DNA of 60,033 bases from Ignavibacteriales bacterium (GTDB taxonomy: Bacteria; Bacteroidota; Ignavibacteria; Ignavibacteriales; Melioribacteraceae). Numbering within the stretch: position 1 is the first letter of the stretch; every line of letters begins with the position of its first letter. Made by a program: the position numbers and the translations under genes. Below, one piece after another: positions 26,374 through 51,405 of this stretch. Below the pieces are notes generated by a model. That model was given only the letters and a program-made list of their open reading frames with translations. It was not told where the DNA came from and made no database searches. The DNA lies in NCBI GenBank assembly GCA_003599395.1, contig QZJX01000009.1, forward strand, positions 1 to 60,033. The letters run 5' to 3'.

Positions 26374-27276
26374 ATGAGAGTGTCCGATTTATTAATGAGC
26401 AATACTTACTTAAGCGGAATAGCAAAAAATAAAAGTAAGATTGATACTTTGAGTAAACAGATTGCAAATCAATCATCCATACTCAAGCCATCGGATTCTC
26501 CGATTGGTACCGCAAAAATTATGCGCTTCGAAAGTAAGATAGCTTCAACCGATCTTTATCTTAAAAACATTAACAGTAGTTATGGTTTTGTAAATGAAAC
26601 AATTCGTGGACTTGAATCCATGGAATCTGAAATCTCCGGAATTCTTGTAAAATTAACCGAAGCAAATAATGCCATTAATCAAGATCATTTAGAAAATTAT
26701 GCAGCACAACTTGATCAATCGCTGGATGCTTTGTTAACATCTGCTAATCTTAGCTATGATGGGAAATATTTATTTGGCGGTACTTCCCATTCCTCACAAC
26801 CGTTTGCAATAACAGCTGATAGATCAGAGGTTGTGTTAAACAGTCCTGATGTAAGCGGAAATTCAAATGTAAAAATTGGGAATAGCACAAATCTAAAAAT
26901 TAACATAACCGGTGAAGAGCTTTTCGGAACAATTAGTTCGGATCCTGAACGTGATATATTCAATACAATTATAAAAATTCGAGATGATCTGAAAAATGGA
27001 GTAATGCCAACCGAAGCAGATGTGACGGCGGTAGATTCATTCCACAAAAAATTGTTAAACAAAATGTCTGATGCCGGATATATCTACAATACTCTTGAAA
27101 ATACTCAGTCACTACTAGAATCACAGAGAATCGAATTAGAAAGTATGCTTTCTACTGAAAAAGATATCGATATGGCTAAAGCCATAGTTGATATGCAGAA
27201 TTATGATTACCTGCTTCAAGTTTCTTATAAAATGTCGGCTATGATACTTCCAAAATCATTATTGGACTTTATCTAA
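26374..27276 (+). CDS. flgL: Flagellar hook-associated protein 3 FlgL
   Basis: FlgL forms the second junction zone and resembles flagellin. The N-terminus has 'MRVSDLLMSNTYLSGIAKNK' and 'LSKQIANQSSILKPSDSPIG', and the middle 'ANLSYDGKYLFGGTSHSSQPF'. The C-terminal flagellin-like helix ('KDIDMAKAIVDMQNYDYLLQ') completes the fold. The length is 300 residues. The stop shares one base with the motA ATG (27276), so a stator gene is coupled to the hook-filament operon. Confidence 0.95.
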   Translation: MRVSDLLMSNTYLSGIAKNKSKIDTLSKQIANQSSILKPSDSPIGTAKIMRFESKIASTDLYLKNINSSYGFVNETIRGLESMESEISGILVKLTEANNAINQDHLENYAAQLDQSLDALLTSANLSYDGKYLFGGTSHSSQPFAITADRSEVVLNSPDVSGNSNVKIGNSTNLKINITGEELFGTISSDPERDIFNTIIKIRDDLKNGVMPTEADVTAVDSFHKKLLNKMSDAGYIYNTLENTQSLLESQRIELESMLSTEKDIDMAKAIVDMQNYDYLLQVSYKMSAMILPKSLLDFI

Positions 27277-28058
27277 TGAAAATGGTAGGCGGATTATTCG
27301 GTTTATTTCTTGGTATAGTTTCCATCTTCGGGGCTTTTCTGCTTGAAGGCGGATCACTTAAAGCTCTGTTTTTAATTGCTCCTTTACTTATTGTTTTCGG
27401 CGGAACATTTGCAGCAACAATCATAGGCTTCGGTTTCGAAAAATTTAGATCAATTTTTAAACTGATTCAAATCGCATACTTCCCGAAGAGATACGATTTC
27501 AAATCATTGATTAATTCATATTTCGAAATTTCCGTGATGGCAAGAAAAGAAGGATTGCTCTCGGTAGAAAAAGAACTTGATAACCTTATGTACACCTTTC
27601 CTAAAAAAATGGTTAGGTATGGAATTGACGGTACCGATGCTGACATGCTGGAAGACATTGCTAGATTAGAAATGAAATTGGTTCAAGAAAGACACTTAGC
27701 AAACGCTGCAATCTTCAACAAGATGGGAGGATACGCTCCCACAATGGGAATTTTAGGAACAGTTATGGCATTAATAATGACTTTAGCAAATGCCGGTTCC
27801 GATCCCGACCTATTAATAAAAAATATAGCAACTGCATTTATTGCAACTTTATGGGGTGTATTAAGTGCAAATTTAATATGGCTTCCGATTGGAGATAGAT
27901 TAAAAGAATGTCATTTAGAAGAAAAACATATGATGGAAATTTCGTTGGAGGGGACAGTAGCACTCTTGAGCGGAGAGATTCCTTCGGTGCTAAAAGCACG
28001 ACTCGTAGGAATGCTGCCTCAAAGAGAGCAAAGAGATCTTCTAGAATTTCAAGTTTAG
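27276..28058 (+). CDS. motA: Flagellar motor stator protein MotA (set 1)
   Basis: The 260-residue protein has four membrane segments with stator motifs: 'ALFLIAPLLIVFGGTFAATIIG', the cytoplasmic loop 'ARKEGLLSVEKELDN', 'MGGYAPTMGILGTVMALIMT' and 'IATAFIATLWGVLSANLIWLPIGDRL'. The C-terminal 'LSGEIPSVLKARLVGMLPQREQRD' is typical of the Gram-positive-like MotA/MotP branch. It is coupled to flgL by a 1-nt overlap. Its last 151 nt overlap the only conventional start of the partner motB gene. A second, different motA lies about 2 kb downstream. Confidence 0.93.
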   Translation: MKMVGGLFGLFLGIVSIFGAFLLEGGSLKALFLIAPLLIVFGGTFAATIIGFGFEKFRSIFKLIQIAYFPKRYDFKSLINSYFEISVMARKEGLLSVEKELDNLMYTFPKKMVRYGIDGTDADMLEDIARLEMKLVQERHLANAAIFNKMGGYAPTMGILGTVMALIMTLANAGSDPDLLIKNIATAFIATLWGVLSANLIWLPIGDRLKECHLEEKHMMEISLEGTVALLSGEIPSVLKARLVGMLPQREQRDLLEFQV

Positions 28059-28720
28059 AGACTGATCTCTACCAAGAGGATAACGATAAAGATCGTTACT
28101 TAATTACTTATGCTGATCTTATTACTCTTTTGTTAGGACTATTTATTATTCTTTACGCAATTTCAAATATTGATATAAAAAAATACGAAGAGATGATGAG
28201 TGCGATTGGAAGTGTTTTTGGTGGTGCAAATGTAATCAACAGTCAACCGGCTGCAACTAGTGCAATTGCCGTTGAGCCGATTGACAAACTTAAAGATGAA
28301 CTAAATTCTTTAATAACCGAAATGAATTACACAAAATCTATTTCGGTAGAGCAAAACGAAAGAGGTTTAACGCTTCATATATTAGATGATATTTTATTTC
28401 CTTCCGGAAGTGCAGAGTTAAATTCCGGATCTGTTGTTGTTCTTAATCAACTTGCATCGATAATTAAAAAACTGCCGAATGATATTAGGGTTGAAGGTCA
28501 TACTGATAATATACCTATAAAAAGCGGCTTATATCCTTCAAACTGGCATTTATCAGTAGCTCGTGCACTAAACACTGCGTACTTTTTAATCGATAAAGAG
28601 AATATAAATCCTGATAAAGTTTCGATTGTCGGATATTCCGAATATCAACCGATTGCGACAAACTTAACTGATGAAGGCAGAGCAAAAAATAGAAGAGTAG
28701 ATTTAGTAATAATAAAATAA
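27908..28720 (+). CDS. motB: Flagellar motor stator protein MotB (set 1), start uncertain
   Basis: MotB anchors the stator to peptidoglycan. The single membrane helix follows 'DRYLITYADLITLLLGLFII', with the ion-binding Asp at residue 70 from this start. A C-terminal OmpA-like domain has 'IRVEGHTDNIPIKSGLYPSN' and 'RRVDLVIIK'. The reading frame has no ATG, GTG or TTG between 27908 and the membrane helix. The protein therefore either begins at 27908, giving a 50-residue Arg/Lys/Ser-rich extension that overlaps motA by 151 nt, or starts at a rare codon such as ATT at 28049. GGAGA lies 12 nt before 27908. Confidence 0.85.
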   Translation: MSFRRKTYDGNFVGGDSSTLERRDSFGAKSTTRRNAASKRAKRSSRISSLETDLYQEDNDKDRYLITYADLITLLLGLFIILYAISNIDIKKYEEMMSAIGSVFGGANVINSQPAATSAIAVEPIDKLKDELNSLITEMNYTKSISVEQNERGLTLHILDDILFPSGSAELNSGSVVVLNQLASIIKKLPNDIRVEGHTDNIPIKSGLYPSNWHLSVARALNTAYFLIDKENINPDKVSIVGYSEYQPIATNLTDEGRAKNRRVDLVIIK

Positions 28721-29377: not shown

Positions 29378-30101
29378 GCCTGCTGAAAAACTAAAAATTT
29401 TAGTAGTGGATGATTCCGATTTAATTCTGCACGCACTAAAAAATTTCTTTCGTGAATATAATCTCGAAGTAATTACTTGTCATGATGGGCTTGAAGGTAT
29501 TCAGCAAGCAATGGAAACCAGACCGACTCTCATCATACTGGATTTAATGATGCCGAATTTAGACGGTGTTAAGATGTTAAATGTCATCAAACTGATGAAA
29601 GAACTCAAGGATATTCCGGTTATTGTAATAAGTGGCAATACAAATAAACGAAATGTTATAGCAGCGATTGAAGCCGGAGCCGAAAAAGTTTTATCAAAAC
29701 CACTTAAGAAAGAATTGCTAAAGAAAAGCATCTCGGAAGTATTGGATCCGGAGTTTCTCAAGAATGCAAAGAAACCAGAGCAAAAAATCGATTTGAACAA
29801 AGAAGATCAAGAATTCATAAATGAACTACGTCAATATTTTTTGAATGGATTTAATTCAAAAGTTGAATTGATGGAATCTGTTTTTAGAAAAGAAGATATG
29901 GATAATCTTCGATTTGTCTTCCACGAATTAAAAGGAACCGGTTCAACAATTGGCTCACCCGAACTTACTCAAATAGGATTGGAAGTTGAGCAAAAAGTTG
30001 ATGAAAAGATTAAGGATTGGAATTACTATAAACAAAGATGGGATGAAGTACTGGAAATAGTTAAAGAAATTAAAAAAGAACAAGTCTCTTTGGAAGATTA
30101 A
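29370..30101 (+). CDS. Response regulator receiver fused to Hpt domain
   Basis: Residues 7-125 form a receiver with acidic pair D14/D15, phospho-acceptor D58 ('LIILDLMMPNLDG') and K110. Residues ~145-240 form a helical Hpt-like domain with candidate phospho-His H185 in 'RFVFHELKGTGSTIG'. The protein could pass phosphate between receivers and kinases. There is no DNA-binding domain. It overlaps csrA by 8 nt and motA2 by 1 nt, so it belongs to the csrA-motA2-motB2 operon. The partner is not identifiable from sequence; the kinases nearby are candidates. Confidence 0.87.
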   Translation: MNEPAEKLKILVVDDSDLILHALKNFFREYNLEVITCHDGLEGIQQAMETRPTLIILDLMMPNLDGVKMLNVIKLMKELKDIPVIVISGNTNKRNVIAAIEAGAEKVLSKPLKKELLKKSISEVLDPEFLKNAKKPEQKIDLNKEDQEFINELRQYFLNGFNSKVELMESVFRKEDMDNLRFVFHELKGTGSTIGSPELTQIGLEVEQKVDEKIKDWNYYKQRWDEVLEIVKEIKKEQVSLED

Positions 30102-30958
30102 TGCTTATAATTATCGGAATATTTGTTGTTACTGTATCTGTTATTGTCGGGTTTGTTATTGCCGGCGGTAATTTACTTTTACTGCTCCAATGGGCGGAAT
30201 TTTTAGTAATTGGTGGTGCCGCTATTGGTAGTCTTCTAATTTCATCGCCGGTTTCATTAATTAAAAAAATTATAAAAGCCATTCCGGAAGCAATTAAGGG
30301 TAGTCATCTTACCAAACAAGATTTTATGGAATTATTAAAATCTTTTAACGATTTATTCCTAATCGCACAGCGAGATGGTTTACTTTCAATAGAAAGTCAT
30401 ATAGAAAATCCTGATGAAAGTGAAATACTATCAAGAAGTAAAAAATTCATCCAGCAAGATTTTATGAAGAATTTCTTCTGTGATACAATGAAAGTTATGC
30501 TTTCCGGTGGAGTTCCGCCTCACGAGTTAGATGCACTGATGGATATAGAAATAGAAACTTTCGAAATTGAGAGTCAACCTGTTAGTCACTCAGTAGCTAA
30601 AGTCGGGGATGCATTACCGGGTCTGGGTATAGTTGCGGCGGTTCTCGGTATTATTGTCACAATGAGTTCAATCGATCAAGGCGCTGCAGCAGTTGGTGCA
30701 CACGTTGCCGCAGCGTTAGTTGGTACTTTTCTTGGAGTGTTGCTTTCCTATGGATTTGTAAATCCACTCGCTACCAGCATTGAACATATGATAGAACACA
30801 AAACCAGATATTTGCAAACTATAAAGTCATGTATTGTTGCATATGCAAAAGGTAATCCGCCGATTGTAGCTGTTGAAATTGCAAGAAGAACAATTTTCTC
30901 GGAAGATAGACCATCATTTTCGGAGCTGGAAAATTACATAAGAGGAAAAACTGAATAA
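30101..30958 (+). CDS. motA: Flagellar motor stator protein MotA (set 2)
   Basis: This 285-residue stator protein is of the branch usual in proteobacterial MotA. Motifs: 'LQWAEFLVIGGAAIGSLLIS', 'LIAQRDGLLSIESHIENPDES', 'PGLGIVAAVLGIIVTMSSID' and 'VGAHVAAALVGTFLGVLLSYGF'. It differs clearly from the first motA. It is flanked by 1-nt overlaps on both sides, with the REC-Hpt gene before and motB2 after. Ion specificity cannot be read safely from sequence alone. Confidence 0.93.
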   Translation: MLIIIGIFVVTVSVIVGFVIAGGNLLLLLQWAEFLVIGGAAIGSLLISSPVSLIKKIIKAIPEAIKGSHLTKQDFMELLKSFNDLFLIAQRDGLLSIESHIENPDESEILSRSKKFIQQDFMKNFFCDTMKVMLSGGVPPHELDALMDIEIETFEIESQPVSHSVAKVGDALPGLGIVAAVLGIIVTMSSIDQGAAAVGAHVAAALVGTFLGVLLSYGFVNPLATSIEHMIEHKTRYLQTIKSCIVAYAKGNPPIVAVEIARRTIFSEDRPSFSELENYIRGKTE

Positions 30959-31734
30959 TGCGCGGAATAGATAACCCGGAACCTCCAATAATAGTAAAGA
31001 AAATTAAGAAAGGAGGCGGTCATCACGGCGGCGCTTGGAAAGTTGCCTATGCTGATTTTGTTACCGCTATGATGGCTTTATTTATTGTGCTCTGGGTACT
31101 TAGTGCAGGCGAAGATGTTCAACAAGCTGTTGCCGGATACTTTAAAGATCCTGTTGGGTTTAGCTCCGGCGGCGGAAAGTTAATTGATCCGAATACAAAA
31201 TTGAATTTGATGGACAACAATATTCTGAATGAAAAAGATTTCAAGGAAATGCAGAAACAAAAATTTGAAGAAATGAAACAAGAAATTATAGATAAGCTTT
31301 CGGAAAGTGAGGGACTTGCATTTCTATTAGATCAAGTAAAATTTGAATTGACCGACGAAGGTCTTAGAATAGAGTTGTTGGATTCATCAAACGATGTATT
31401 TTTCCAGCTTGGTAGTGCTCAGTTAAATCTTGCGGCAAAAGAAGTTCTTAACAGAGTTGGAAGCGAGATAAGTAAAATCCCGAATAAAGTAGCAATTGAA
31501 GGACATACCGACATCAGACCCTTTAACTCCGGCGGTATAGAATATACCAATTATGAATTAAGTGCAGATAGAGCAAATTCAGCAAGACGAGAATTAATAA
31601 AAGGTGGACTTCGAGAAAATCAGTTGGATGAAATTAGAGGTTACGCCGCTAATCGTCTGCGAGATAAAGATGATCCGTATAACATAATTAACAGAAGAAT
31701 TAGCATTATTATTAAATATTCAGATCAATTATGA
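30958..31734 (+). CDS. motB: Flagellar motor stator protein MotB (set 2)
   Basis: The N-terminus and membrane helix are classical MotB: 'KKGGGHHGGAWKVAYADFVT' then 'AMMALFIVLWVLSA', with the ion-binding Asp at residue 33. A plug-like segment follows, then an OmpA-like peptidoglycan-binding domain ('AIEGHTDIRPFNSGG', 'YELSADRANSARRELI'). The length is 258 residues. The stop overlaps the next ATG (ATGA at 31731-31734), coupling a receiver protein to the stator. The helix resembles E. coli MotB, which is proton driven, while set 1 resembles the MotS/MotB group; the functional meaning is inference. Confidence 0.93.
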   Translation: MRGIDNPEPPIIVKKIKKGGGHHGGAWKVAYADFVTAMMALFIVLWVLSAGEDVQQAVAGYFKDPVGFSSGGGKLIDPNTKLNLMDNNILNEKDFKEMQKQKFEEMKQEIIDKLSESEGLAFLLDQVKFELTDEGLRIELLDSSNDVFFQLGSAQLNLAAKEVLNRVGSEISKIPNKVAIEGHTDIRPFNSGGIEYTNYELSADRANSARRELIKGGLRENQLDEIRGYAANRLRDKDDPYNIINRRISIIIKYSDQL

Positions 31735-35496: not shown

Positions 35497-35979
35497 ATGG
35501 AAAATCAAAAAATAGAGATTACCGATTTAATACAACTTGTCAGTTTTAAAGTCGGGCGCGAAGAATTCGGAATTGACATTCTAAAAGTTCAAGAAATTAA
35601 TAGAATGTTAAAAATAACCAAGGTTCCAAATGCACCGGATTTTGTTGAAGGAGTTGTAAATCTAAGAGGAAGAATTATACCGGTTATCGATTTAAGAAAA
35701 AGACTTAAAATTGAAAGTAGAGAGCACGACAACAAGACAAGAATTGTTGTCGTTGATATAACCGGCAATACAGTAGGATTTATTGTTGACGAAGTAAACG
35801 AAGTACTTCGCATTCCTAAAGATATTATAGAAAATCCGCCGGAATTAGTTGCTACTGTCGATAGTGAATTTATTACATCGGTAGCAAAATTAGAAGACAG
35901 AATTATAATCTTGCTTGATTTAGATAATCTTCTTAAACAAGACGAACAAGCAAATCTAGATAAACTAACTGAACAATAA
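35497..35979 (+). CDS. cheW: Chemotaxis coupling protein CheW
   Basis: CheW links chemoreceptors to the kinase CheA. The 160-residue single CheW domain has 'LVSFKVGREEFGIDILKVQE', 'ITKVPNAPDFVEGVVNLRGRIIPVIDLRKR' and 'TVGFIVDEVNEVLRIPKDII'. A TGAGG ribosome site precedes the ATG. It is followed 46 nt later by a chemoreceptor gene. No cheA, cheB, cheR or cheY is present in the window, so the partner genes must be elsewhere. Confidence 0.96.
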   Translation: MENQKIEITDLIQLVSFKVGREEFGIDILKVQEINRMLKITKVPNAPDFVEGVVNLRGRIIPVIDLRKRLKIESREHDNKTRIVVVDITGNTVGFIVDEVNEVLRIPKDIIENPPELVATVDSEFITSVAKLEDRIIILLDLDNLLKQDEQANLDKLTEQ

Positions 35980-36025: not shown

Positions 36026-38113
36026 ATGAGTATTCTTAATAACTCCAAATCATTATCAAAAAAAATATCCCACTCAGTTGCAGGTGCATTAATACTTCTA
36101 TTGGGTGTGCTTTTGATCTTTGTTTTATATTATTCACAAAGTTCAAAACTCGAAAGTGCAAAGGATTTGACAGACGAAGTAAATCAAACAATGAAGCAAT
36201 CCATACTATTCTCAATGGGAGAAGGTATTACTGATGTTGAACCATTTGTCGATAGGATCAAACAACTTGACAACATAGCTGAAGTAAGAATAATTCCCAC
36301 AGATTTAATTGACGACACAAAAGCAAAAAGCATAAATTCACTCGAAAAAGAAGTAATCAAATCCAAGGAAGATTATTTTGGTGAAGATGAACATAACGGT
36401 ATTCCAGTGTTTCATTCTATAACAACTTTAGTTGCTGATGAAAACTGCTTGGATTGCCATGAAGGAAATGTCGGTGATGTTTATGCGGTTATGAGTATAA
36501 AATACTCTTTAGAAGAAACCTACGCTTCCATATATGGCGAACGAATCGGAGCAATAATTCTAATTGCAGCATTTGCAACTTTTGTTTGGTTGCTGATTTT
36601 ATTTTTAGTCAAAAAGAATGTTTTGAACGATTTGTTTAACTACATCTCGAATGTTAAAAAATTAGCGAAAGGAGATCTATCCGAAAAGATTTCGGTTACA
36701 CGTAAAGATGAACTTGGTGATTTAGGTGAATCACTTCAACATCTGCAAGGAAGTTTAACAAATCATGCACAAACCGTTAAACATTTCTCCGAAGGAAATT
36801 TTGATGTTGAGGTAACCACACTATCAGACAAAGATATATTAGGCAAATCTATATTTGACATAAAAACCAGCCTAACAAATTTATCCAATGACGCGAGAAC
36901 ATTGTCGGTTGCAGCAAGAGACGGTAATCTTTCGGAAAAAGTTGATGTTGATAAACATAAAGGATTATTTAACAAAATCATCAAAGGATTTACATCTACA
37001 TTTACGCATTTAACCGATCCAATAAAAGAAGGCAATATCGTACTTCAAAAATATGCAACCGGAGATTTAACCGCTCGTGTAGAAGGCGAATATAAAGGTG
37101 AACATCAGCTTATAAAAAATAGTATTAACAATTTAGGTAATTCTCTTTCTTCGCTTATAAAGAATGTTACCGAAGCAGTTCAAGCAACAGCAAGCGCAAG
37201 CAGTGAAATTTCTGCTTCATCGGAAGAAATGGCTGCCGGTGCTCACGAACAATCCGCACAAGCTACAGAAGTAGCAAGTGCAGTTGAACAAATGACAACA
37301 ACTATTTTGCAGACTACAAAAAATGCAAACTTAGCATCAGAAAGTTCTGTAAACGCAAGCAAACTGACAAAAACCGGTGTTGAGCAAATTACAAGAGCAA
37401 AGGAAGGAATGAATGAAATTACCGCTTCTGCACAAGGAACTGCTAAAGTAATTAGTTCGCTTGCAAATAAAACCGATCAAATTGGAAAGATTGCTCAAGT
37501 CATTGATGATATCGCCGATCAAACGAATTTACTTGCACTAAATGCAGCAATTGAAGCCGCACGCGCCGGTGAACAAGGAAGAGGTTTTGCAGTTGTAGCA
37601 GACGAAGTCCGCAAACTAGCCGAACGTACGACAAAAGCTACCAAAGAGATTGCCGAAACAATCAAAGAAATTCAGAATGAAGCTCGCGAAGCAAACGAAT
37701 CAATGGTCGTTGCCGGTAAAGTAGTAATGAAAGGAATTGAGTTAAACGCTCAAGTGGAAGAAGTCTTATTAAGTATTGATAAAACAGTTAAATCTGTAAG
37801 TGATGAAATTAATCAAGTTGCATCTGCAAGTGAAGAACAATCTACGGCAGCCGAACAAATTAGCAAGAACATTGAATCAATAAGCAATGTAACACAAGAA
37901 TCTGCTGCGGGTACTCAACAAATTGCTAGAGCAGCCGAAGACTTAAACAAGCTGACGGAGAAATTACAAAGCATGGTTGCACAATTCAAAATCATAGCTT
38001 TTGAATATACCGGCAGTTCAATTAAAACTAGTTTCCACTCAGCAGATCAAACAGCAAAAATTCCTAAAATTTCTCCGAGCAATGGAAAAGGTAACGGTAG
38101 ATTAGTTCACTAA
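36026..38113 (+). CDS. Methyl-accepting chemotaxis protein with periplasmic c-type haem motif
   Basis: A membrane helix at ~18-37 and another at ~172-195 flank a periplasmic domain of ~135 residues. That domain contains CLDCH at residues 141-145, a c-type haem attachment site, within '[20 protein letters not shown]', a pattern seen in haem-c sensor receptors. HAMP and HAMP-like repeats follow (~195-380). The signalling domain has the conserved hairpin '[20 protein letters not shown]' and Ala/Gln/Glu-rich methylation helices. No C-terminal CheR-binding pentapeptide is seen. It lies behind cheW. A redox, oxygen, CO or NO taxis receptor is the natural inference. Confidence 0.93.
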
Positions 38114-38258: not shown

Positions 38259-39500
38259 TTAAATTTCTTCTTGTTCAACCGGAATTCTAAAAAAGAAAGT
38301 GCTTCCTTTTTCACGTTCACTTTTAGCCCAAATTTTACCATTGTGCTTTTCAACGAACTCTTTGCTAATAAGCAAACCTAAACCGGTTCCGGTTTCGCCT
38401 TCGGTTCCTGAACTTGTTACTTTGCTATCTAGTTTGAATAATTTATTTACAATCTCTTTACTCATACCGATCCCGGTATCTTCTACTGAAACAATTAAAT
38501 CATCAATATCGAATCCGGACGAGATTTTTATCAATCCATATTTTGGTGTGAATTTAATTGCGTTGTTCACAAGATTTCTAATGATTGTTTTTATCATGTG
38601 AGCATCCGCATTTATTGTACAGTTTTTGGGGACCAAATTAACAACTGTAATATTTTTGTCCTTCGCTACCGATCGCAATGCGTTAACAACTGAAGACACA
38701 ACTTCATACAAATTGAAAACTTTCGGCTCAAACTCAATTCTGTTGAATTGTATTCTTGACCAATCCAGTAAATCTTCTATTAAGTTGAATAAACCTTCCG
38801 AAACTTGATGAAGATTATATAATGAATCTTTTATTTCCTCTCTTGAAAATCCGTCAAAGTCTTCAAGAATTAGTTTGGTTAGACCAAGTAAAGAGTTAAA
38901 CGGACTTCTGAGATCGTGTGAAATAATAGAAAAAAATCTATCTTTATTTTTATTTATCTCTTCAAGCTGCATTTCGGATTGACGCAATTTTTCATTAAGA
39001 AGAGCAAGTTCACTAGTTCTTTCTTCCAGATCATCTCTAACAACCTGCATCTCTTCAAAATATCTACGAATATATTGTTCCTCTTCTTTCTTAGAAGAAA
39101 TATCCTCCACTGCAGCAACTATTTTTAATTCACTATTATCTTCGGGAAAGTAGTGCGAGAATTTGTACAGAAATGTAATGACCTTCCCTTCTTCAATTTC
39201 ATATTTGACATCGACTTGTATTACATTTTCACTTGTAGAATTTTTAATCTGATTAAAGTATTCACTAAGTTTTAATTTTGATTCACGATTTTCAAGATGA
39301 AGCAAATTTAATTCAGTCGGATCTTTTGAAACTTTAGAAAAAAGTTTTTTTGCGGAATTATTATAATTAATTATTGTTCCATCTTGATCAATTTCTAGTA
39401 ATGCGATTGGCGCCAGTCTAAAAATGCGGTCATCTTCATTTTTAGTAATATTATTCTGAACGTCAGGATTATTTTCGAGAGTTGAGATTTCGGTGTTCAT
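38259..39500 (-). CDS. PAS sensor histidine kinase, cytoplasmic
   Basis: The 413-residue protein has a PAS domain (~25-140, 'LAPIALLEIDQDGTIINYNN', ending 'KIVAAVEDISSKKEE'), a coiled coil (~140-185), HisKA with H195 ('FFSIISHDLRSPFNSLLGLT') and HATPase_c ('IIRNLVNNAIKFTP', 'VEDTGIGM', 'GTGLGLLISKEFVEKH'). All catalytic boxes look intact. No membrane segment is present. A FliA-type promoter lies directly upstream. The start ATG at 39500 is the first in frame after that promoter. No regulator is adjacent in the same unit. Confidence 0.92.
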   Translation of the reverse strand: MNTEISTLENNPDVQNNITKNEDDRIFRLAPIALLEIDQDGTIINYNNSAKKLFSKVSKDPTELNLLHLENRESKLKLSEYFNQIKNSTSENVIQVDVKYEIEEGKVITFLYKFSHYFPEDNSELKIVAAVEDISSKKEEEQYIRRYFEEMQVVRDDLEERTSELALLNEKLRQSEMQLEEINKNKDRFFSIISHDLRSPFNSLLGLTKLILEDFDGFSREEIKDSLYNLHQVSEGLFNLIEDLLDWSRIQFNRIEFEPKVFNLYEVVSSVVNALRSVAKDKNITVVNLVPKNCTINADAHMIKTIIRNLVNNAIKFTPKYGLIKISSGFDIDDLIVSVEDTGIGMSKEIVNKLFKLDSKVTSSGTEGETGTGLGLLISKEFVEKHNGKIWAKSEREKGSTFFFRIPVEQEEI

Positions 39501-39557
39501 TTAAATTCGGCTGATTATTTATCACTGAATTAACTAAAGATGCTACTAGCTAATTCA

Positions 39558-39584
39558 TTATCGAATGAAAAATAGATTTGTTTA
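39558..39584 (-). promoter_or_regulatory. Sigma-28 (FliA)-type promoter for the 38,259-39,500 kinase
   Basis: Read on the - strand: TAAA (39584-39581), 15 nt, then TTCGATAA (39565-39558). This is the same pattern and spacing as at cheW. The predicted start near 39551 gives a leader of about 50 nt. Confidence 0.65.
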
Positions 39585-39604
39585 GGCTGCGTTTACAAAT
39601 ATAT

Positions 39605-40669
39605 TCAAGAAGCTAAACCGAGGTTTATTTTTACTTCGGTTCCTTCATCTTTTTTACTATTTATTTCGAAGTTTCCATCTGCAAGTTTAACTATATTTTT
39701 CACAATGGCTAGACCAAGACCATTTCCTTCCTGTTGATTCTGCTCTCTGTTGAATTGCTTAAATGCAGTTATTTGTTTTTCTTCATCCTTAGTCATTCCC
39801 ATACCTTTATCAATAACTAAGATTTGATAAGTATTACCAATTACTTCTCCGCTAATAATTATTGGAGAACTCGAATGCATAAATTTATATGCGTTATCGA
39901 CTAACTCAATTAAGATTCTAGACAAATAGTCTTGTGAAATTTTTAATTCTGCTTCATCTATTTTAATAGAAAGAAGACTGACATCATTATTACGGAATTT
40001 TGAAGTAAGCAAATTTGTGACATACATACTATCTATTTGAGTTTTATCAATAGATTTGTTTTCTGTTTTATTTAATTCTAATTCCGCGAAGTACAGGAAC
40101 TTTTCAATTCTATCGTAAAGTCTTAATCCGGAATGCTTCACCTTCTCAGCCATTTCTTTAATTTCTCTTTTTTCCAAATCATCAAGATTATTGATGATTA
40201 AATCGGCAAAACCAAGTATTGAAACTAAAGGTGTTCGCAGTTCATGCGGAATGTACATTGAAATATTGGATTTAAGATCATCAAATTTCTGTTTAAAATT
40301 ACTTTGTTTTTGTAAGCGAGTTTTCACAGCCGAAATTAAATCATTCGCTTTAAATGGTTTAGTGATATAATCATCAGCGCCGTATTGCATCCCCATTCTA
40401 ATATCTCGTGTTTCGGATCTTGCGGTAAGTAAGATTATTGGAATTCCGGAGGTAACAGGATTTGATTGAATATATTTTACTAAATCGTAACCATCTATTC
40501 CGGGCATCATAATGTCTGATATAATTAAATCGGGAAGACTGTTTTCTAAAGACTTTATTGCGCTGATTCCGTTATCTGTTTCGATCACTTCAAAATTTTC
40601 AGATTCCAAAATTTCAGCAATATTACTGCGAACAATTTCTTCATCTTCAACGATTAAAATTTTCTTCAC
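39605..40669 (-). CDS. Hybrid response regulator - histidine kinase (REC-HisKA-HATPase)
   Basis: The 354-residue protein starts with a receiver (VKKILIVEDEEIVRSNIAEI, phospho-acceptor D52 in 'LIISDIMMPGIDG') followed by HisKA ('NISMYIPHELRTPLVSILGF', H142) and HATPase_c ('DKGMGM', 'GNGLGLAIVKNIV'). GTG at 40669 is chosen because GGGAGG lies about 5 nt upstream and the protein begins at the receiver; an ATG at 40699 would add ten residues encoded by that ribosome site. Soluble. The receiver probably controls the kinase in cis. Its own promoter is not obvious in the 121-nt gap upstream. Confidence 0.88.
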   Translation of the reverse strand: MKKILIVEDEEIVRSNIAEILESENFEVIETDNGISAIKSLENSLPDLIISDIMMPGIDGYDLVKYIQSNPVTSGIPIILLTARSETRDIRMGMQYGADDYITKPFKANDLISAVKTRLQKQSNFKQKFDDLKSNISMYIPHELRTPLVSILGFADLIINNLDDLEKREIKEMAEKVKHSGLRLYDRIEKFLYFAELELNKTENKSIDKTQIDSMYVTNLLTSKFRNNDVSLLSIKIDEAELKISQDYLSRILIELVDNAYKFMHSSSPIIISGEVIGNTYQILVIDKGMGMTKDEEKQITAFKQFNREQNQQEGNGLGLAIVKNIVKLADGNFEINSKKDEGTEVKINLGLAS

Positions 40670-40790
40670 TGTCCCTCCCGGCTGTAAATTGATTTTCAAT
40701 TTGAAGAAATCAAAGCGTCTTTAAGTATTTGCTTTAACCTGGCAATAATTGTCGATAAATACAATACAAAGAAGAAATATATTTTAAAAA

Positions 40791-43700
40791 TTATTGAATG
40801 AGAGGAAGGATGATTTCGAACTGAGTCCACTTTTTAATTTCACTATTTACATTAATAGTTCCGTTGTGTAATTCCACTGCTTCTTTCACAATCGAAAGTC
40901 CTAGCCCGGTACCTGAAATATTTGAAACATTTCTACCACGATAAAATGGTTCAAATAAATTGTTAAGTTCTTCTTGTTCAATACCAATTCCATGATCTTT
41001 TATTTTTATGTTTATGTTGTCATCATAATCAGAAATGAAAAGTTCAACGTCACCACCATCAGGTGAATATTTTAACGCATTTGAAATGAGGTTTTGAATA
41101 ATATACTTAATAAGTTTTTCATCAAGAAAATATTCTTCACTTTTTAAGTTGAATTCCACCTTGAAATTATGTGTTGCCTTTTTAAGCGGTTCTAAACTGA
41201 TTAAATTTTCTTCTACAAGTTTTTTGAGTTTCAGCCTACTAGGACTGAATTCTATCTTACCGGTCTCAACTCGCGATAAAGTAAGTAGATCTTCCATTAA
41301 GTCTGTTAAGTTTTCAACAGAATATTTTATTCGAGCAATATGTGAATGAAATTTATCCTCAGTCCATTTTCTCCCAAATTTTTCTATTAATTCTGTTGAA
41401 CTGTAAATTGCTGTTAAAGGAGTTCTGAGTTCATGCGATGCAAGAGAAATAAAATTTGATTTCATTTCATTCAGTTCTCTTTCCTGCTCAAGAGCCTTCT
41501 GCATTTGATGCTGGGTTTCTTTACTTTTTGTTATATCGATAATTAAACCCACTATACCTTCAGGTACTTCTTCTTCCGGTCCAAATGATGCTTTGTACAC
41601 CATAATTGGGATAGTTCTTCCGCTCTTATTTTGCGCAACGGATTCGTAAATAATTTTACCATGTTCTTTTAATAATTTGTTATCTGCTTCTTCGGCTTCT
41701 GATGCTATTTGTGTGTTAGCAATTTTCTTAACTGTTTCCCCTATTATTTCATCAAACCCAAGTTCAAACAATTCTATAAAAGCTTTGTTTACGTCTGTAT
41801 ATTTTCCGGCTCTATTTTTTACAAAAACCGGATTTGGAATTGTGTCGATAAGTGTTCTTAAAAAGATATTTTTATTGTTTAGCTCTTCTGTTCTTCTTTC
41901 AACTACTTGTTCGAGGTATTCTTTGTAATTCTTTAATTCAATTTGAGCTTTAGTCAACTCGGTTATATCTTCTTTAACGGCAATATAATGACGAACACTT
42001 CCGTCTTCGTCTGTTATTGGTGATATCGATGCTGATTCAAAGAACAGTTCGCCATTTTTCTTTTTGTTTTGAAAAATACCGGTCCATGTTTCGCCGCCTG
42101 AAATTTTCTCCCACAATTCTTTGTATTGTTCGTCAGTTGTTCTTCCTGATTTTAAGATATTCGGATTTTTCCCAATAGCTTGATCGTAGGAATAACCAGT
42201 AACATCTTCAAACTTTGGATTAACATATTCAATATTTCCGTTTAGGTCGGTAATAACAATCGAAACCGGACTTTGTTCAACCGCTCGATAAAGGATTTTC
42301 TTTTCTTCTTCTGCTTCAATCAATGCTGTAATATCTTTTTGAGTTCCCCAAATTCTTAATAAAAATCCGTCTTCTACAATTCCAAAAGCATTATTAGAAA
42401 AGTGGAGCGTGTTTCCCTTCTTATCAGATTCCGTTGTATGCTGATTTTCAACACGATAACCACGATTAATTAGATCAACAGTTTTATTGAAGTTTTCAGG
42501 ATATCTTTCGAGATCATGAAATTCCGAAATCTGTTTTCCAATTAATTCGTAAGGGTATTTTGCACCATACATTTTTACAAAAGAAGAATTGCATTCTGCG
42601 ATATAACCATTTTTGTAAAATAATTTTGCTTGTTCTTCAGAAGGCAAATTAGTACTGATGGGCATTGTAAATTCAATTCTGTATATACCTTCATGTGTCT
42701 CGTCAATAAATGCTTCATATCGCTCTCTGCTTGCTTGAAGCATTTCTGCAATTCGTTTGTTTTCCGTTATATCTCTAATTATGGCAAGAAGTGAATTTTC
42801 ACCACTTTTAACAATTCTTGATTCATAGTATCTTATTTCATCGTTCATCTCAAGAGGATATTCATAAAGCTGCATTTCTCCCGTAACCTTAGCGGCATAA
42901 ATTTTTTCCATCGTTAAATCAGATAATTCTTTAGGGAAAATGTCACTAACTTTTTTACCAATAAATATCGCGGGATCTAAATACAGAGCTTCATCAGTAT
43001 TGGCGTAGTATTCCGTAAAGGTACCATCAGAATCAAGCTGGAATAAAAGATCAGGAAGAGCGCTAACAATCGCGCTATTTTTTTCTAAACTTTCGCGCAA
43101 GTTGTTTTCCACTTTTTTTAACTCAGAGATATCTTCCACTACTCCCATTCCGCTTATTATTCTATTATCGAGATCGCGAATACCACGGAGATAGATTTTA
43201 GCATTTACTTTTTTACCTGAGGTAATCGATGTGTATAAATCTTCGTAGTAGCCATATCCGTTCAATAATGTTAAGCGAACTTGTTCTGCTAATTTTTTAT
43301 CAGGTAATTGAAGTAAATTTATTCCGGTTAGTTTTTCTCGTGAGGAATTTAAGATTTCTATAAACTTTTCGTTGAAGTCTGTTATGATGCCATCGGAATC
43401 AAAATGAAAAATTCCAAGCGGGGAGTTCAAAAAAATGTTACGATATTTACTTTCACTATCTTTAATTCTTTGCTGGGCGGTTCCAACACTTTTAATATAT
43501 ATAAACAACCAAATAAACAGTGTTGTAAAAAGCACCACGGTTATTGCAATTCTTAATTCTTGAATTAACTCGAGCTTTTCTTGATCAACATTAATTATAT
43601 CAAGATACGTTTGGTTTAATGAATTACTGATACTTAGGAAAGTATTAAGTTTTTCAATATTAGCCGCTTGCAGAATTATAATTTCTTCGCTATTGAGATT

Positions 43701-44084
43701 GTTACTAACTATTAACCATGAGAGTTCTAGATATTCCTCCAATTCTTCTGAAGCTAATTCGAGTTGTTTTATGAGACTCGAATTCTTATCATTTGCACCA
43801 ATGCTTGCGGAATATTTAAGTGAGGATTTTAACTTCTCAAAAGACGTGCTTAATTTTTCTAATGAGTTTACCAATGATTCATTCTTATCCAAACTATCCG
43901 GATTAAAATCTTTTATTGCACTATTTGACTTGAATAAGTTCAATTCAATATCGGAGAATAATTTCATTACATGAATTTTTTCTTTATGACGGTAGTGAAC
44001 GTAGTAGTATGAGAATACCATCGAAACAATCAATAGTAGAAATACGATTGCAATGAATATTAAAAAGAATTTATTCTTTTTCAT
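40791..44084 (-). CDS. Membrane-bound multi-PAS sensor histidine kinase
   Basis: The 1097-residue protein has membrane helices at ~6-28 and ~180-200 flanking a helical extracytoplasmic domain of ~150 residues. About five PAS-type segments follow (starting near 'YRNIFLNSPLGIFHFDSDGI', 'IVSALPDLLFQLDSDGTFTE', 'YEAFIDETHEGIYRIEF', 'VEQSPVSIVITDLNGNIEYV' and 'LIDTIPNPVFVKNRAGKYTD'). HisKA carries H884 in 'FISLASHELRTPLTAIYSST', and HATPase_c has 'DHGIGI' and 'GTGLGLSIVKEAV'. It is an intact kinase. The ligands of the PAS domains cannot be read from sequence. Confidence 0.92.
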   Translation of the reverse strand: MKKNKFFLIFIAIVFLLLIVSMVFSYYYVHYRHKEKIHVMKLFSDIELNLFKSNSAIKDFNPDSLDKNESLVNSLEKLSTSFEKLKSSLKYSASIGANDKNSSLIKQLELASEELEEYLELSWLIVSNNLNSEEIIILQAANIEKLNTFLSISNSLNQTYLDIINVDQEKLELIQELRIAITVVLFTTLFIWLFIYIKSVGTAQQRIKDSESKYRNIFLNSPLGIFHFDSDGIITDFNEKFIEILNSSREKLTGINLLQLPDKKLAEQVRLTLLNGYGYYEDLYTSITSGKKVNAKIYLRGIRDLDNRIISGMGVVEDISELKKVENNLRESLEKNSAIVSALPDLLFQLDSDGTFTEYYANTDEALYLDPAIFIGKKVSDIFPKELSDLTMEKIYAAKVTGEMQLYEYPLEMNDEIRYYESRIVKSGENSLLAIIRDITENKRIAEMLQASRERYEAFIDETHEGIYRIEFTMPISTNLPSEEQAKLFYKNGYIAECNSSFVKMYGAKYPYELIGKQISEFHDLERYPENFNKTVDLINRGYRVENQHTTESDKKGNTLHFSNNAFGIVEDGFLLRIWGTQKDITALIEAEEEKKILYRAVEQSPVSIVITDLNGNIEYVNPKFEDVTGYSYDQAIGKNPNILKSGRTTDEQYKELWEKISGGETWTGIFQNKKKNGELFFESASISPITDEDGSVRHYIAVKEDITELTKAQIELKNYKEYLEQVVERRTEELNNKNIFLRTLIDTIPNPVFVKNRAGKYTDVNKAFIELFELGFDEIIGETVKKIANTQIASEAEEADNKLLKEHGKIIYESVAQNKSGRTIPIMVYKASFGPEEEVPEGIVGLIIDITKSKETQHQMQKALEQERELNEMKSNFISLASHELRTPLTAIYSSTELIEKFGRKWTEDKFHSHIARIKYSVENLTDLMEDLLTLSRVETGKIEFSPSRLKLKKLVEENLISLEPLKKATHNFKVEFNLKSEEYFLDEKLIKYIIQNLISNALKYSPDGGDVELFISDYDDNINIKIKDHGIGIEQEELNNLFEPFYRGRNVSNISGTGLGLSIVKEAVELHNGTINVNSEIKKWTQFEIILPLIQ

Positions 44085-44206
44085 CTATCTAACGTATACT
44101 TATTCTCTTAATTATAAGAAGCTATAAAGATAATAAAACCCAAGTTTAGCCAATCGGATTTTCGTAACATGTTTTGGGTAAAAAAAGAGGATCCCACTTA
44201 TAAAAT

Positions 44207-45445
44207 TTATCTGCCATTTGATTTGATGCGTAAAGAAACTGTAGTGCCTTCGTATTTTACGCTATGAATTGAAATCTCAATATCATTCAAATCGCAAAAA
44301 TATTTTACCAATGCCATACCTAATCCGTTTCCTTCATAACTTCTTGAATATCCATGCTCTTCTTGTGAGAATGGTGTGAAGATATCTTTAATATAATTTT
44401 CATTCATTCCAATACCGGTATCTTTGATGCTGATAATAGTTTCCGAATCAGTTTGGCAAAGGCTAATATTTATATAACCTGTCGAAGTAAACTTTATAGA
44501 ATTGTCAATTATATTATTAAGAATTTGGACAAAGGAATAATGATCCAAATGAACACAGCATTCCTCCAATCTTGAATCTAATTTTATCTCTAAATCCTTT
44601 CTAATTTTTTGTTTGTGTTCGTAAATCAGAGTTTCAAGAACTTCAACAACGTCGATCTCCACAATTCGTTTTTCATATGAACCTGAAATTACTTGGGACA
44701 TATCAATAAGTAAATCAATAGTTCTTATAATTCTTTCACCGGATCTTTCAATTATTGTAAAACCATCTCTAAGATCTTCGGGAACACAACTAACAGCTTC
44801 GGATTTAATTAAACTGGTAAAACTGATAATAGAATTAATAGGTGTTCTTATTTCATGAGAAACTTGCGATAGGAATTCGGTTTTCAGTTTATCAGCATTC
44901 TCCGCTTTAAGTTTAGCAACTCTCATCTCCGAATTAGATCTTTCAAGTTCTCTTGTTTTCTCTTCCAGTTGTTTTGTTCTGTGTTCAACAAGTTTTTCTA
45001 AGCTTGCTTTATATGCTTTATTCTCTTCTATTAACTGTACTTTTTCTAATGCGCGATGAAGACTTAATTCAAGCACATCAAAATTTAGAATTGGTTTTGT
45101 GATAAAATCCCAAGCACCAAGTTGAATTGCTCTAATTGCATTATCAATTTCGCCTGTTCCGGAAACAACAATCAAAGGTGTATCGGGAGAATTTCTAGAA
45201 ATGTAAGAGATAACTTGGTGGCCATCAATATTCGGCATATTAAGATCAACTACAACTACATCAAATTTTTGACTTAGAAATAACTGAATTCCTGTCCTTC
45301 CATCATTAGCTACGGCAACAACACTTTCTTGATCTTCAAAGTAAAACTTCAAACTTTCGCATAGCTGAACATCGTCATCAATGATTAATACTTGCAAACC
45401 GGTGAAGGGAACATCGTACTTACTAGAATTTGGATTATTGCTCAT
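44207..45445 (-). CDS. Hybrid response regulator - histidine kinase with coiled-coil linker
   Basis: Residues 15-130 are a receiver (phospho-acceptor D67 in 'VVVVDLNMPNIDG', K117 in 'FITKPIL'). A coiled coil follows (~135-190, 'YKASLEKLVEHRTKQLEEK'), then HisKA with H197 ('EFLSQVSHEIRTPINSIISF') and HATPase_c ('IIDNSIKFTST', 'KDTGIGM', 'EGNGLGMALV'). No membrane segment is seen. The same REC-first layout occurs in the gene at 39,605, so these two hybrids form a local pair. It is separated from the lone receiver upstream by 105 nt. Confidence 0.92.
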   Translation of the reverse strand: MSNNPNSSKYDVPFTGLQVLIIDDDVQLCESLKFYFEDQESVVAVANDGRTGIQLFLSQKFDVVVVDLNMPNIDGHQVISYISRNSPDTPLIVVSGTGEIDNAIRAIQLGAWDFITKPILNFDVLELSLHRALEKVQLIEENKAYKASLEKLVEHRTKQLEEKTRELERSNSEMRVAKLKAENADKLKTEFLSQVSHEIRTPINSIISFTSLIKSEAVSCVPEDLRDGFTIIERSGERIIRTIDLLIDMSQVISGSYEKRIVEIDVVEVLETLIYEHKQKIRKDLEIKLDSRLEECCVHLDHYSFVQILNNIIDNSIKFTSTGYINISLCQTDSETIISIKDTGIGMNENYIKDIFTPFSQEEHGYSRSYEGNGLGMALVKYFCDLNDIEISIHSVKYEGTTVSLRIKSNGR

Positions 45446-45550
45446 ATAGGACTACTAAAGATTAAAAAAATATTGAGTGACAAAATTAAATAAATCTGCG
45501 GTAATAATTATATAAAAAGCTCCGATTAAAAATTAGATTTACAGCCAATT

Positions 45551-45928
45551 TTATAGACTGGTGGATAATTCCTTTATTTTCTTAACGAAAATGTCCATTG
45601 ATTTTATTGGTTTATGATAAACATCGTTCTGAGTCATTCCGATATCAATTAGTTCTTTTGAAAGTTTATAATCCGAAGAACCGGTGTAGATGAGAAATTT
45701 AGTTTGGGGATTTAGTTTATGTGCTTCTAATATAAACTCTTCTCCATTCATAACCGGCAAACGCAAATCCACAATTCCAACTTCAAATTCAGAATTCGAA
45801 AATTCACTTAACGCAGTTACAGAATCTTCATAAGCAGAACAATCAATGTCCTCATCTTCAAAATAGATCTGTAAGTTTAATCTTACGTCATAGTCATCAT
45901 CCAAAATTAACAGCTTAATGTTTTTCAT
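45551..45928 (-). CDS. Single-domain response regulator (receiver only)
   Basis: The 125-residue receiver has the acidic cluster at D9/D10/D11 ('LLILDDDYDVRLNLQIYFED'), phospho-acceptor in 'VGIVDLRLPVMNG' and Lys in 'VYHKPIK'. There is no output domain. It lies 13 nt downstream of the large multi-PAS kinase on the same strand, so it is the natural cognate receiver of that kinase. A function as a phosphorelay shuttle to the hybrids downstream is plausible. Confidence 0.88.
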   Translation of the reverse strand: MKNIKLLILDDDYDVRLNLQIYFEDEDIDCSAYEDSVTALSEFSNSEFEVGIVDLRLPVMNGEEFILEAHKLNPQTKFLIYTGSSDYKLSKELIDIGMTQNDVYHKPIKSMDIFVKKIKELSTSL

Positions 45929-45941
45929 TTTAGCCGCCTTT

Positions 45942-48900
45942 TTATCTTGGTAATTTTATTATAAATGTGGTTCCTCTTCCTACTTTTGAATTGAACGTAA
46001 GAATTCCATCATGATTATTCTTTATAATCATATATGATACCGATAAACCTAATCCGGTTCCGTCTCCTACTTCTTTCGTTGTAAAGAATGGTTCAAAAAT
46101 TCTATGACTAATTTTTTCGGGGATTCCGGGACCATTATCTTCAATTTCGAGAACTACATATTCAGCTTCCAATTTCAATCTAAAAATAATTTGTGGGATC
46201 TTTTCCAAATTATTTTCTTCATGAATAGCTTGAGCCGCGTTACGCACAATGTTGAAAATTACTTGTTCAATTTCAGTTACTGTAATCTTTATATCAGGCA
46301 ATGATTCGGGAAACTCTTTAATTATATCAATATTCCTAAAATCGAATTTCTTCTTCATATCGTAATCATTATATGCTAATTCAAGCGTATCGTTAACGAG
46401 CTTAATCATATCGTATTTTACTTTCTTAGATTCACTTCTTCTGCTGAACTGGAGCATGTTCTTTATAATCTCGGAAGCTTTAGCGGCTGCTGTTCTCATA
46501 GATTCAATGATATCATGTATTTGCCGTTCTTTCATGTAAGCTTCAATCGCTGTAATTGTTAAACCAAGTCCTTGTGCAATATCATTATTCTTCGGTAAAA
46601 CGTCTGATGTTCTACGTAAAATGTTTTGACATCCTTGAACTATTGTACCAAGCGGATTATTTATCTCGTGCGCCATACCGGCTGCTAATCCGGCAACACT
46701 TAACATTTTTTCTGATTGAATCATAAGTTCATCAATCTTTTGTCGTTCGGTTACATCTTCAATCATTAATACAAAACCGGGTTGCTGTTCATTTTTAATT
46801 TTTGAAACCGTAAGTAGAAAATTTTGAATCTCGCCATTTTCTTTTATTATACTTTTTGTAGTACTGTCGGATTCTGATTGATTTCTAATTGCATCACGTA
46901 AAGAATCTTCAATAAAATTAAGCCCCGGGAACATGTTAAACAAATATTCATCTTCTGCCTCTTCATCAAAATATTCGCGTGATGCTTTATTAGAATGAGT
47001 CACAAACAATTCAACATCCACCGAAATTATTACACTTTGTATCGAATCCATAATAAATTGGATATAGTTAAAAGCCGATTGTAATTCTTTCCTTGCCTTT
47101 TCTATCTCGGTGATATCTTGAACCACATTAAGGATACATTCTTTATCGTTGAAAATTATTGGGCGAAGTGTAAGCAGTAAATTTCTTTTACCAAGTTTTT
47201 TGTGATAAAAATTAAAAGGATGATTTTCTAACTCACCATTATATTCAAGCATATGACTTAGTTCACCATAAAGCTCAACCGGCAAATTTTCATTTTTAAC
47301 GGCATCAATAATTGACGACGAGTAAATTTCTTGAATACTTACACCGACTAAATCTGAGTAAGCTTTGTTAACAATTAATCTCTTATGCGGTACTTCTTTC
47401 TCGATAATTTGCATTGGTATCGGTGAATCTTCAAATATTCGCAAGAAATTTTTTCGTTCAATTGCAATTATATCTTCAGCTTTTCGTTTTTCTGTAGTAT
47501 CAATAAAAAATACACTCATTTTATTTTCGCCGGTATTAAACGCAAAGATTTCAAAAATTCCTCTTACTCCCTTTTCGTCATATCTTATTATTCCCTCATA
47601 ATTCCTAAGTTCACCTTTAGCCAATTTTTTATATACATCAACCAATTCGGTTTTGGTTAAATGCGGGAAAAGTTCTTCCATAGTTTTGTTCATAAAAACA
47701 GAATGATCCGAACCTAATATTTGCTCCGCTGATTTATTATAGCCGCTAAAGATAAGATCATCGTTGCCGTTAATTTTATAACTATGAGCACCAAAAGGAG
47801 AAGAATCAATTATGTTTCTAACAGCTTCTTCAGCTATCTTTCTCTCTGTTATATCGATATAAATTGAACCAACATAGAGTTCTTTTTCAGTTTGAATCGG
47901 GAAAATAGATTGAAGAATTACCAAACTATTTCCGTTTCTATTAATAATTTTTATTTCCGTCTGTTTAATTTTTTCGATAAAACTTCTACCGCGTTTAGGA
48001 TCACTTGTCAACATTTTAATTCTATTTAACTTCTCCTTTGCTTCCAGCAGAGGAATTTCTGAAGTGTCAATTATACTTAGCTGTATATCCCATATATATT
48101 TACCTATTGCTTGCTGCTTTGGAATTCCGGTCAACTTTTCTTGTGCAGCATTAAATTCTATTATGATTCCGTTCTTATCCATCAAAACAAAACCGTTTGA
48201 AGATTGCTCGATAAACGATCTAAATTTTTCTTCACTTAACTTGATTCGTTCTTCGGATGATTTCCTTAAAGTTATATCCGTCAACACACCAAATGAGCCT
48301 ATTACCTCACCTTCTGAATTATAAACCGGCGATCCGCTTACTAAGAAATCGATTTTCTTTCCGCTCTTACTTCTAAATGCAATTTCATATTGACTTGCTA
48401 CTTTCTTTGTACGAAGTGTGTTCATTTTTTTAATAATATGATGATCAGCCTGATCGAGCAAAACTTCGTAACCAGGTTTACCTTTGATTTCATCCAATGT
48501 ATAACCAAGAATTTCGGTAAACTTATTATTTACAAACACAATTCTATCATCATTATCGACCTGCATAACACCGTCGTTCATTCCTTCGATGAGTGTTCTT
48601 AATTTAAACTCACTTTCTTTTAATTGAATTTCCATACTTTTTGTATGAGTAACATCTTTAACACGGGCTTGCAAAAAATGATTTTCATTTATAATAAATT
48701 TGTCCAGCGTAATTTCTGCGTTAAAAAGTGAACCGTCTTTTCGCTTGTGAATCCATTCGAAAAATAAACTCTCGCCAACCAATGCCTCTTTAATCTTTTG
48801 TTCTTCGAGTTCGGATGAAAGCTCCCCCGATGATTGATATTTGGGAGAAATTTCATGAGGAGCTTTACCTATTAATTCATCTTCTTTGCAATCAAATATT

Positions 48901-50014: not shown

Positions 50015-50022
50015 TATCTTTG
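50015..50022 (+). promoter_or_regulatory. Bacteroidota-type -7 box (TAnnTTTG) before nqrA
   Basis: TATCTTTG matches the Bacteroidota sigma-A -7 consensus TAnnTTTG exactly. It is 30 nt before the nqrA ATG and near a plausible transcription start. No clear TTG -33 element is seen at the usual distance, so confidence is moderate. Confidence 0.45.
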
Positions 50023-50052
50023 TCTCTTTATTTTGAATTATGTAGGAAGAAT

Positions 50053-51402: not shown

Positions 51403-51405
51403 TTC

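Follow-up and report, generated by a model that had tools for sequence, protein, structure and literature searches.

A methyl-accepting chemotaxis protein (MCP) of 695 residues, recognised by its open reading frame and Pfam matches at 36026–38113 (+ strand) of a 60,033-nucleotide stretch of Melioribacteraceae DNA (hereafter the window), has a predicted periplasmic haem-c sensor. The sequence makes it very probable that this outward-facing sensor carries covalently bound haem, and profile searches together with a structural model identify the domain as a haem-c single Cache domain (sCache_heme) of the type represented by GSU0935 and GSU0582 of Geobacter sulfurreducens. Besides the two cysteines and the histidine of the attachment motif, a fourth invariant residue, Met64, probably works as the switch of the haem. 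The receptor type is already known from Geobacter; what is new here is a member in the Melioribacteraceae, another bacterial lineage. That the distal methionine is strictly conserved goes beyond prior description and, as read from the alignments, would favour a Met/His ligand switch.

Attachment motif and membrane topology

The codons tgc ttg gat tgc cat at 36446–36460 (+) encode CLDCH at residues 141–145, a predicted haem-c attachment motif (Cys141, Cys144 and proximal His145) recognised from the sequence and from relatives. Cys141 and Cys144 are the sole cysteines among the 695 residues of the receptor, and no CxxCH was found in any other frame of at least 120 aa in the window. A chance origin of the motif was rejected, as CxxCH arose in only 9 of 100,000 shuffles of the receptor's own composition and the motif is conserved in relatives.

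Hydropathy peaks at residues ~13–40 and ~169–200 indicate two transmembrane helices, TM1 (approximately 36074–36139, +) and TM2 (approximately 36548–36616, +), which flank the predicted periplasmic sCache_heme domain (~residues 39–173; 36140–36544, +), itself delimited by hydropathy and by the Cache fold seen in the model and fold search. Behind TM2 follow a HAMP signal relay domain (residues 210–245; 36653–36760, +; PF00672, 8.6e-10), a second HAMP-like domain, HAMP_2 (residues 310–374; 36953–37147, +; PF18947, 1.8e-17), and the MCPsignal signalling domain (residues 439–623; 37340–37894, +; PF00015, 1e-45). Since all three lie after TM2, residues 39–173 with their CxxCH are placed outside the cytoplasm. 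The first-pass annotation had put CLDCH between two membrane helices, which the translation of the reading frame and the hydropathy profile confirm. It had also named a cytoplasmic domain as the outcome that would contradict its reading; that arrangement did not appear, and a cytoplasmic sensor was rejected given the two flanking peaks and the position of the HAMP and MCP domains behind the second. An extracytoplasmic sensor fused to a signalling output is also the arrangement of sCache_heme Cluster 2.

Relatives of the sensor domain

Scanning genome contigs with the single receptor sequence recovered no relative, and scanning them with an alignment profile (A2) recovered 12 loci. A profile search of 97 genomes, including that of the receptor itself, gave 21 places, spread over 18 genomes; the frame read at each was the longest with CxxCH, and every one accordingly has the motif (frames for the conservation counts below were picked otherwise). 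The MCP domains from 19 of these places, the window's included, were aligned (A1), leaving out two partial, kinase-type matches (L027 and L030); the invariant columns are Met64, Gly67, Glu107, Cys141, Cys144 and His145. In a sample of 395 genomes from the phylum, 37 had a match at E ≤ 0.001, and the plasmid records searched for the sensor domain gave none. Among named relatives, metagenome genomes of Melioribacter/Ignavibacteriales come closest. The same species is also represented by a complete genome (one contig, 3,742,376 bases), which encodes a protein that has one additional residue and matches the receptor at 695 of 696 aligned positions. Going by titles and abstract openings, a literature search returned no report of haem chemoreceptors in Melioribacter.

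Fold and homology to the Geobacter sensors

Searching the PDB with the single sequence yielded nothing useful (best E 1.4, unrelated). By contrast with this query, the A1 profile matched 3b42 (GSU0935) at 3.9e-8 and 3b47 (GSU0582) at 4e-5, and a 13-row profile combining MCPs with other proteins (A4) matched them at 4e-15 and 4.5e-12, respectively; the Tll0287 structure 5b82 was reached by neither sequence profile. In the A4 alignment, Met64 stands without a gap opposite chain residue 26 of both structures, and the histidine of the motif stands opposite chain residue 110 of 3b42 and 109 of 3b47, numbered His144 and His143 in PMC8396549, which sets the numbering offset at 34. With this offset, chain residue 26 becomes residue 60, and Met64 therefore corresponds to Met60 of GSU0935/GSU0582 (codon at 36215–36217, +; predicted distal, or sixth, haem ligand from conservation and alignment). 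The A1 alignment agrees for 3b47 and is one residue off for 3b42, beside a movable one-residue gap. The methionine at the distal ligand position and the histidine of CxxCH both match the GSU0935/GSU0582 type by alignment.

An AlphaFold model built from 13 sequences (pLDDT 86.6, pTM 0.72) contains a long first helix ending right after Met64, a four-stranded sheet and, between its third and fourth strands, a short helix that bears the CxxCH. In model numbering, in which residue n is protein residue n + 12, the strands span 72–79, 105–111, 114–124 and 140–149 and the CxxCH helix 127–131. Cache structures dominate the fold-search matches of this model. Foldseek returned nine matches at E ≤ 0.001, three of which were GSU0935/GSU0582 chains, and the WalK sensor was also found; the Geobacter matches had low TM-scores, large rmsd and 14–16% identity; poor scores of this kind would be expected from setting a domain-swapped crystal form against a monomer model. 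With VIA-align, WalK sensors gave Z ~13 and Tll0287 (5b82) gave Z 9.5 (rmsd 3.2, 120 aligned).

Family profiles scored the window's own domain below their thresholds, which counts against the assignment. PF21563 (Mcp40H-20_sensor), the family of the two Geobacter sensors, scored 21.5 bits on the whole protein and 24.2 on the domain alone, against a cut-off of 27, and a 63% identical relative (G052) passed with 29.7 bits. The Tll0287 family (DUF3365, PF11845) has been named sCache_heme, and its CXXCH is conserved in at least 99% (Deshpande et al. 2026 preprint, PMC12889525). The receptor resembles this family in its CXXCH, kept in all 45 full-coverage relatives described below, and differs in that its PF11845 score stays below the cut-off (15.8 bits for the whole protein and 20.1 for the domain alone, versus 24.1). 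PF11845 matched all 19 A1 members, the window's included, at E ≤ 0.1 (best 2.5e-7). A genome search with PF11845 at E ≤ 0.001 gave no match in the receptor's own genome nor in control genomes, and was hence uninformative.

GSU0935 and GSU0582 share with the receptor the order TM–periplasmic domain–TM–HAMP–MCP, a single CxxCH, a Cache/PAS-like fold and a methionine at the distal position. They differ in belonging to another phylum and in their low sequence identity, and HAMP_2 may be an additional domain of the receptor. The Geobacter proteins form a domain-swapped dimer, with haem that is high-spin when oxidised and low-spin when reduced. By its description in PMC8396549, DcrA of Desulfovibrio vulgaris is similar in having a periplasmic c-haem domain in a chemoreceptor, and different in having a cytoplasmic PAS domain. 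The proposal of the first-pass annotation, a periplasmic haem-c domain receiving a redox or diatomic-gas signal, agrees with this homology to sensors whose structures and spectra have been studied.

A conserved distal methionine

To define a conservation set, 530 translated frames of the fetched loci were searched with the A1 profile, giving 60 distinct matches. The 45 that cover at least 130 positions were kept, and 15 with fewer were left out, 13 of which fall short of the methionine column. Although these 45 distinct relatives are only 16–68% identical to the window's domain, Met64, Cys141, Cys144 and His145 are each present in 45 of 45, and no other column reaches 85% conservation. Clustering at 60% left 37 sequences, all with the methionine. 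When the search was repeated with the methionine column masked, 35 of 37 full-coverage matches had Met in register, and the remaining two were misaligned by one residue beside a Met. The literature search returned no report of a conserved methionine in such domains, going by titles and abstract openings.

Because the profiles used to retrieve the loci include the methionine, sequences lacking it are under-sampled. In addition, where the upstream stretch was read in 12 proteins with partial matches, four (L106, L107, L109 and L110) had a Met at a like place and eight of Tll0287 type (L027, L030, L115–L119 and L123) did not. The claim of conservation therefore covers a Met-type subfamily rather than the whole Tll0287 family. 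By a rough tally this subfamily spans MCPs and histidine kinases; among its members are one sequence from Calditrichota and one from Caenispirillum. Two of the proteins with partial matches, L106 and L107 from genomes of the same class, are 725–734 aa long, contain three tandem CxxCH motifs with a Met in like context before each, and resemble triple haem Cache sensors.

These counts also bear on whether the domain binds haem at all. As the general Cache fold binds small ligands, the protein could be a haem-free receptor for a small organic molecule, its CxxCH being a relic or a disulfide. We regard this as highly improbable: CxxCH is retained in every full-coverage relative down to 16% identity, where only Met64 otherwise reaches 85%, and ccm genes are present.

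Haem supply

The first-pass annotation had called for ccm or ResBC genes, and would have abandoned covalent haem in a genome without cytochrome c maturation. Such an absence did not appear. Two proteins in the draft genome match Cytochrom_C_asm, both on contig C30: one is CcsB/HemX-like and adjoins hemA, hemC and hemD, and the other belongs to the CcmF/NrfE family, its start running past the contig end. CcmE was not found in the draft (81% complete), because the contig ends inside ccmF; it was found in seven of seven relatives tried, and also in the complete genome of the same species. There, a Cytochrom_C_asm protein, ccmE and ccmF lie side by side, and we infer the first of these to be ccmC. 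In a relative of the same genus (G002), a ccmE frame likewise adjoins a ccmF-like frame. Hence the ccm part of the proposed check was borne out, whereas ResB (PF05140) was not found in the receptor's own genome; ResB is not needed if Ccm is present.

Multihaem cytochromes are encoded on contigs C30 and C91. Directly 3' of the multihaem cytochrome gene on C91 lies a second haem-c sensor of this genome, a histidine kinase (L125:131–2014, −) whose Cache-like domain contains CFACH and a longer CYNAPCH motif.

Chemotaxis and motility genes

Directly upstream of the receptor, with a gap of 46 bases, lies the gene of the coupling protein CheW (35497–35979, +; PF01584, 1.4e-41), as annotated at first pass, and the accompanying statement that the window has no other MCP holds as well. 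The draft genome has others: two full MCPs, the receptor included, and one fragment at a contig end (C25). The second full MCP, on contig C9, has a 4HB_MCP_1 sensor in which no haem family was found. Together with the MCPsignal domain of the receptor and the adjoining cheW, the genome provides CheA, located on another contig, and flagellar genes, which make up most of the window: FliK, FlgD, FlgE, FliL, FliM, FliN, FliP, a FliR-type protein, FlhB and FlhA, as well as FlgG-type proteins, FlgA, FlgI, a flagellin-like protein, MotA/MotB and FliW. A cheW-like gene was also close to the MCP in 5 of the 11 related loci searched.

Other features of these regions were observed alongside. In G002 (loci L079/L070), the haem MCP adjoins two more MCP matches and two cheW matches, whereas the window has a single MCP/cheW pair. 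Right after the receptor, on the opposite strand (38259–49727, −), histidine kinases, PAS-rich kinases and receivers follow in series, and a comparable series of reading frames occurs in the complete genome of the same species. Two MotA-like genes lie in the flagellar region, at 27276–28058 and 30101–31734: the first adjoins a flagellin-like gene and is followed by a reading frame at 27908–28720, and a MotB gene comes after the second. The Na+-pumping NQR that the first-pass annotation had linked to the receptor is represented by NqrA and NqrB (50020–52608), and has no bearing on what the receptor senses.

Proposed mechanism and the nature of the signal

In GSU0582 and GSU0935, Met60 is a ligand of the haem in its reduced state; it departs upon oxidation, and CO and NO displace it (PMC8396549). 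As Met64 is present in 45 of 45 relatives and aligns with Met60, the likeliest mechanism, by this alignment and analogy, would be a Met/His ligand switch that responds to redox state or to NO. We infer the following course for haem attachment, the switch and the signal. In the periplasm, Ccm would attach one haem c to Cys141 and Cys144; the motif and the homologues suggest His145 as the proximal ligand. The predicted sixth ligand of the reduced haem is Met64, where the long N-terminal helix ends. Going by the Geobacter spectroscopy, Met64 would be freed once the iron is oxidised or binds NO or CO, and since its helix is a continuation of TM1, this release should move TM1 relative to TM2. Both HAMP-like domains would then relay the change to the tip of the MCP, which via CheW would alter the activity of CheA and with it the rotation of the flagella. 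Redox potential would thus guide the cell; if a gas does so instead, NO would be the likeliest. Overall, we consider it probable that the receptor is an sCache_heme MCP of the GSU0935/GSU0582 kind, in which a Met64-switched haem c steers the cell by redox, NO being the alternative gas signal.

The literature on related sensors bears on what that signal is. The earliest c-haem chemoreceptor, DcrA of Desulfovibrio, reportedly senses oxygen as well as redox potential (PMC8396549), and direct binding of O2 for aerotaxis, as proposed for DcrA, could be considered here too. Such a role is improbable, as the sCache_heme proteins tested became oxidised and formed no stable O2 complex (PMC12889525); oxygen would therefore act via the redox state. 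A dedicated NO receptor, in which the haem is mainly an NO trap, redox only sets its readiness and NO merely displaces Met64, seems a possible but rather unlikely reading. A HAMP-linked sCache_heme member has the properties of an NO sensor, with slow NO release (koff 6.25e-4 per s) in addition to the lack of a stable O2 complex (PMC12889525), and GSU0582/GSU0935 bind NO in both redox forms and CO in the reduced form only (PMC3460858). However, with potentials of −156 and −251 mV for the Geobacter sensors, their authors favour a redox-linked switch (PMC8396549), and the multihaem cytochromes of the present genome fit redox sensing, while being compatible with NO too.

Implications for the haem Cache family

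The proposed redox-led Met64 switch differs from the ligation described for sCache_heme members in PMC12889525, where the distal ligand is Cys or His in stand-alone members and water is proposed for the signalling protein of P. azotoformans; the available part of that text contains neither 'Met60' nor 'methionine'. Conservation of the distal methionine invites re-examination of the water-ligated model for signalling members. We tentatively suggest, as a reading that may well prove too broad, that Met64, Cys141, Cys144 and His145 define a 'Met-type' haem Cache clade with MCP, histidine kinase and other outputs, in which a methionine located on the helix that emerges from TM1 serves as a universal switch released by redox or NO. 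If this is true, the water-ligated NO-trap model for signalling members would be wrong or incomplete for the Met-type clade, and the low-spin spectrum of the P. azotoformans sCache_heme protein (PMC12889525) would reflect Met/His ligation. For the organism, the analysis points to a c-haem chemotaxis receptor in flagellated Melioribacteraceae, encoded beside flagellar genes; for the family, the invariant methionine narrows the question of redox versus NO sensing by haem Cache receptors to one residue.
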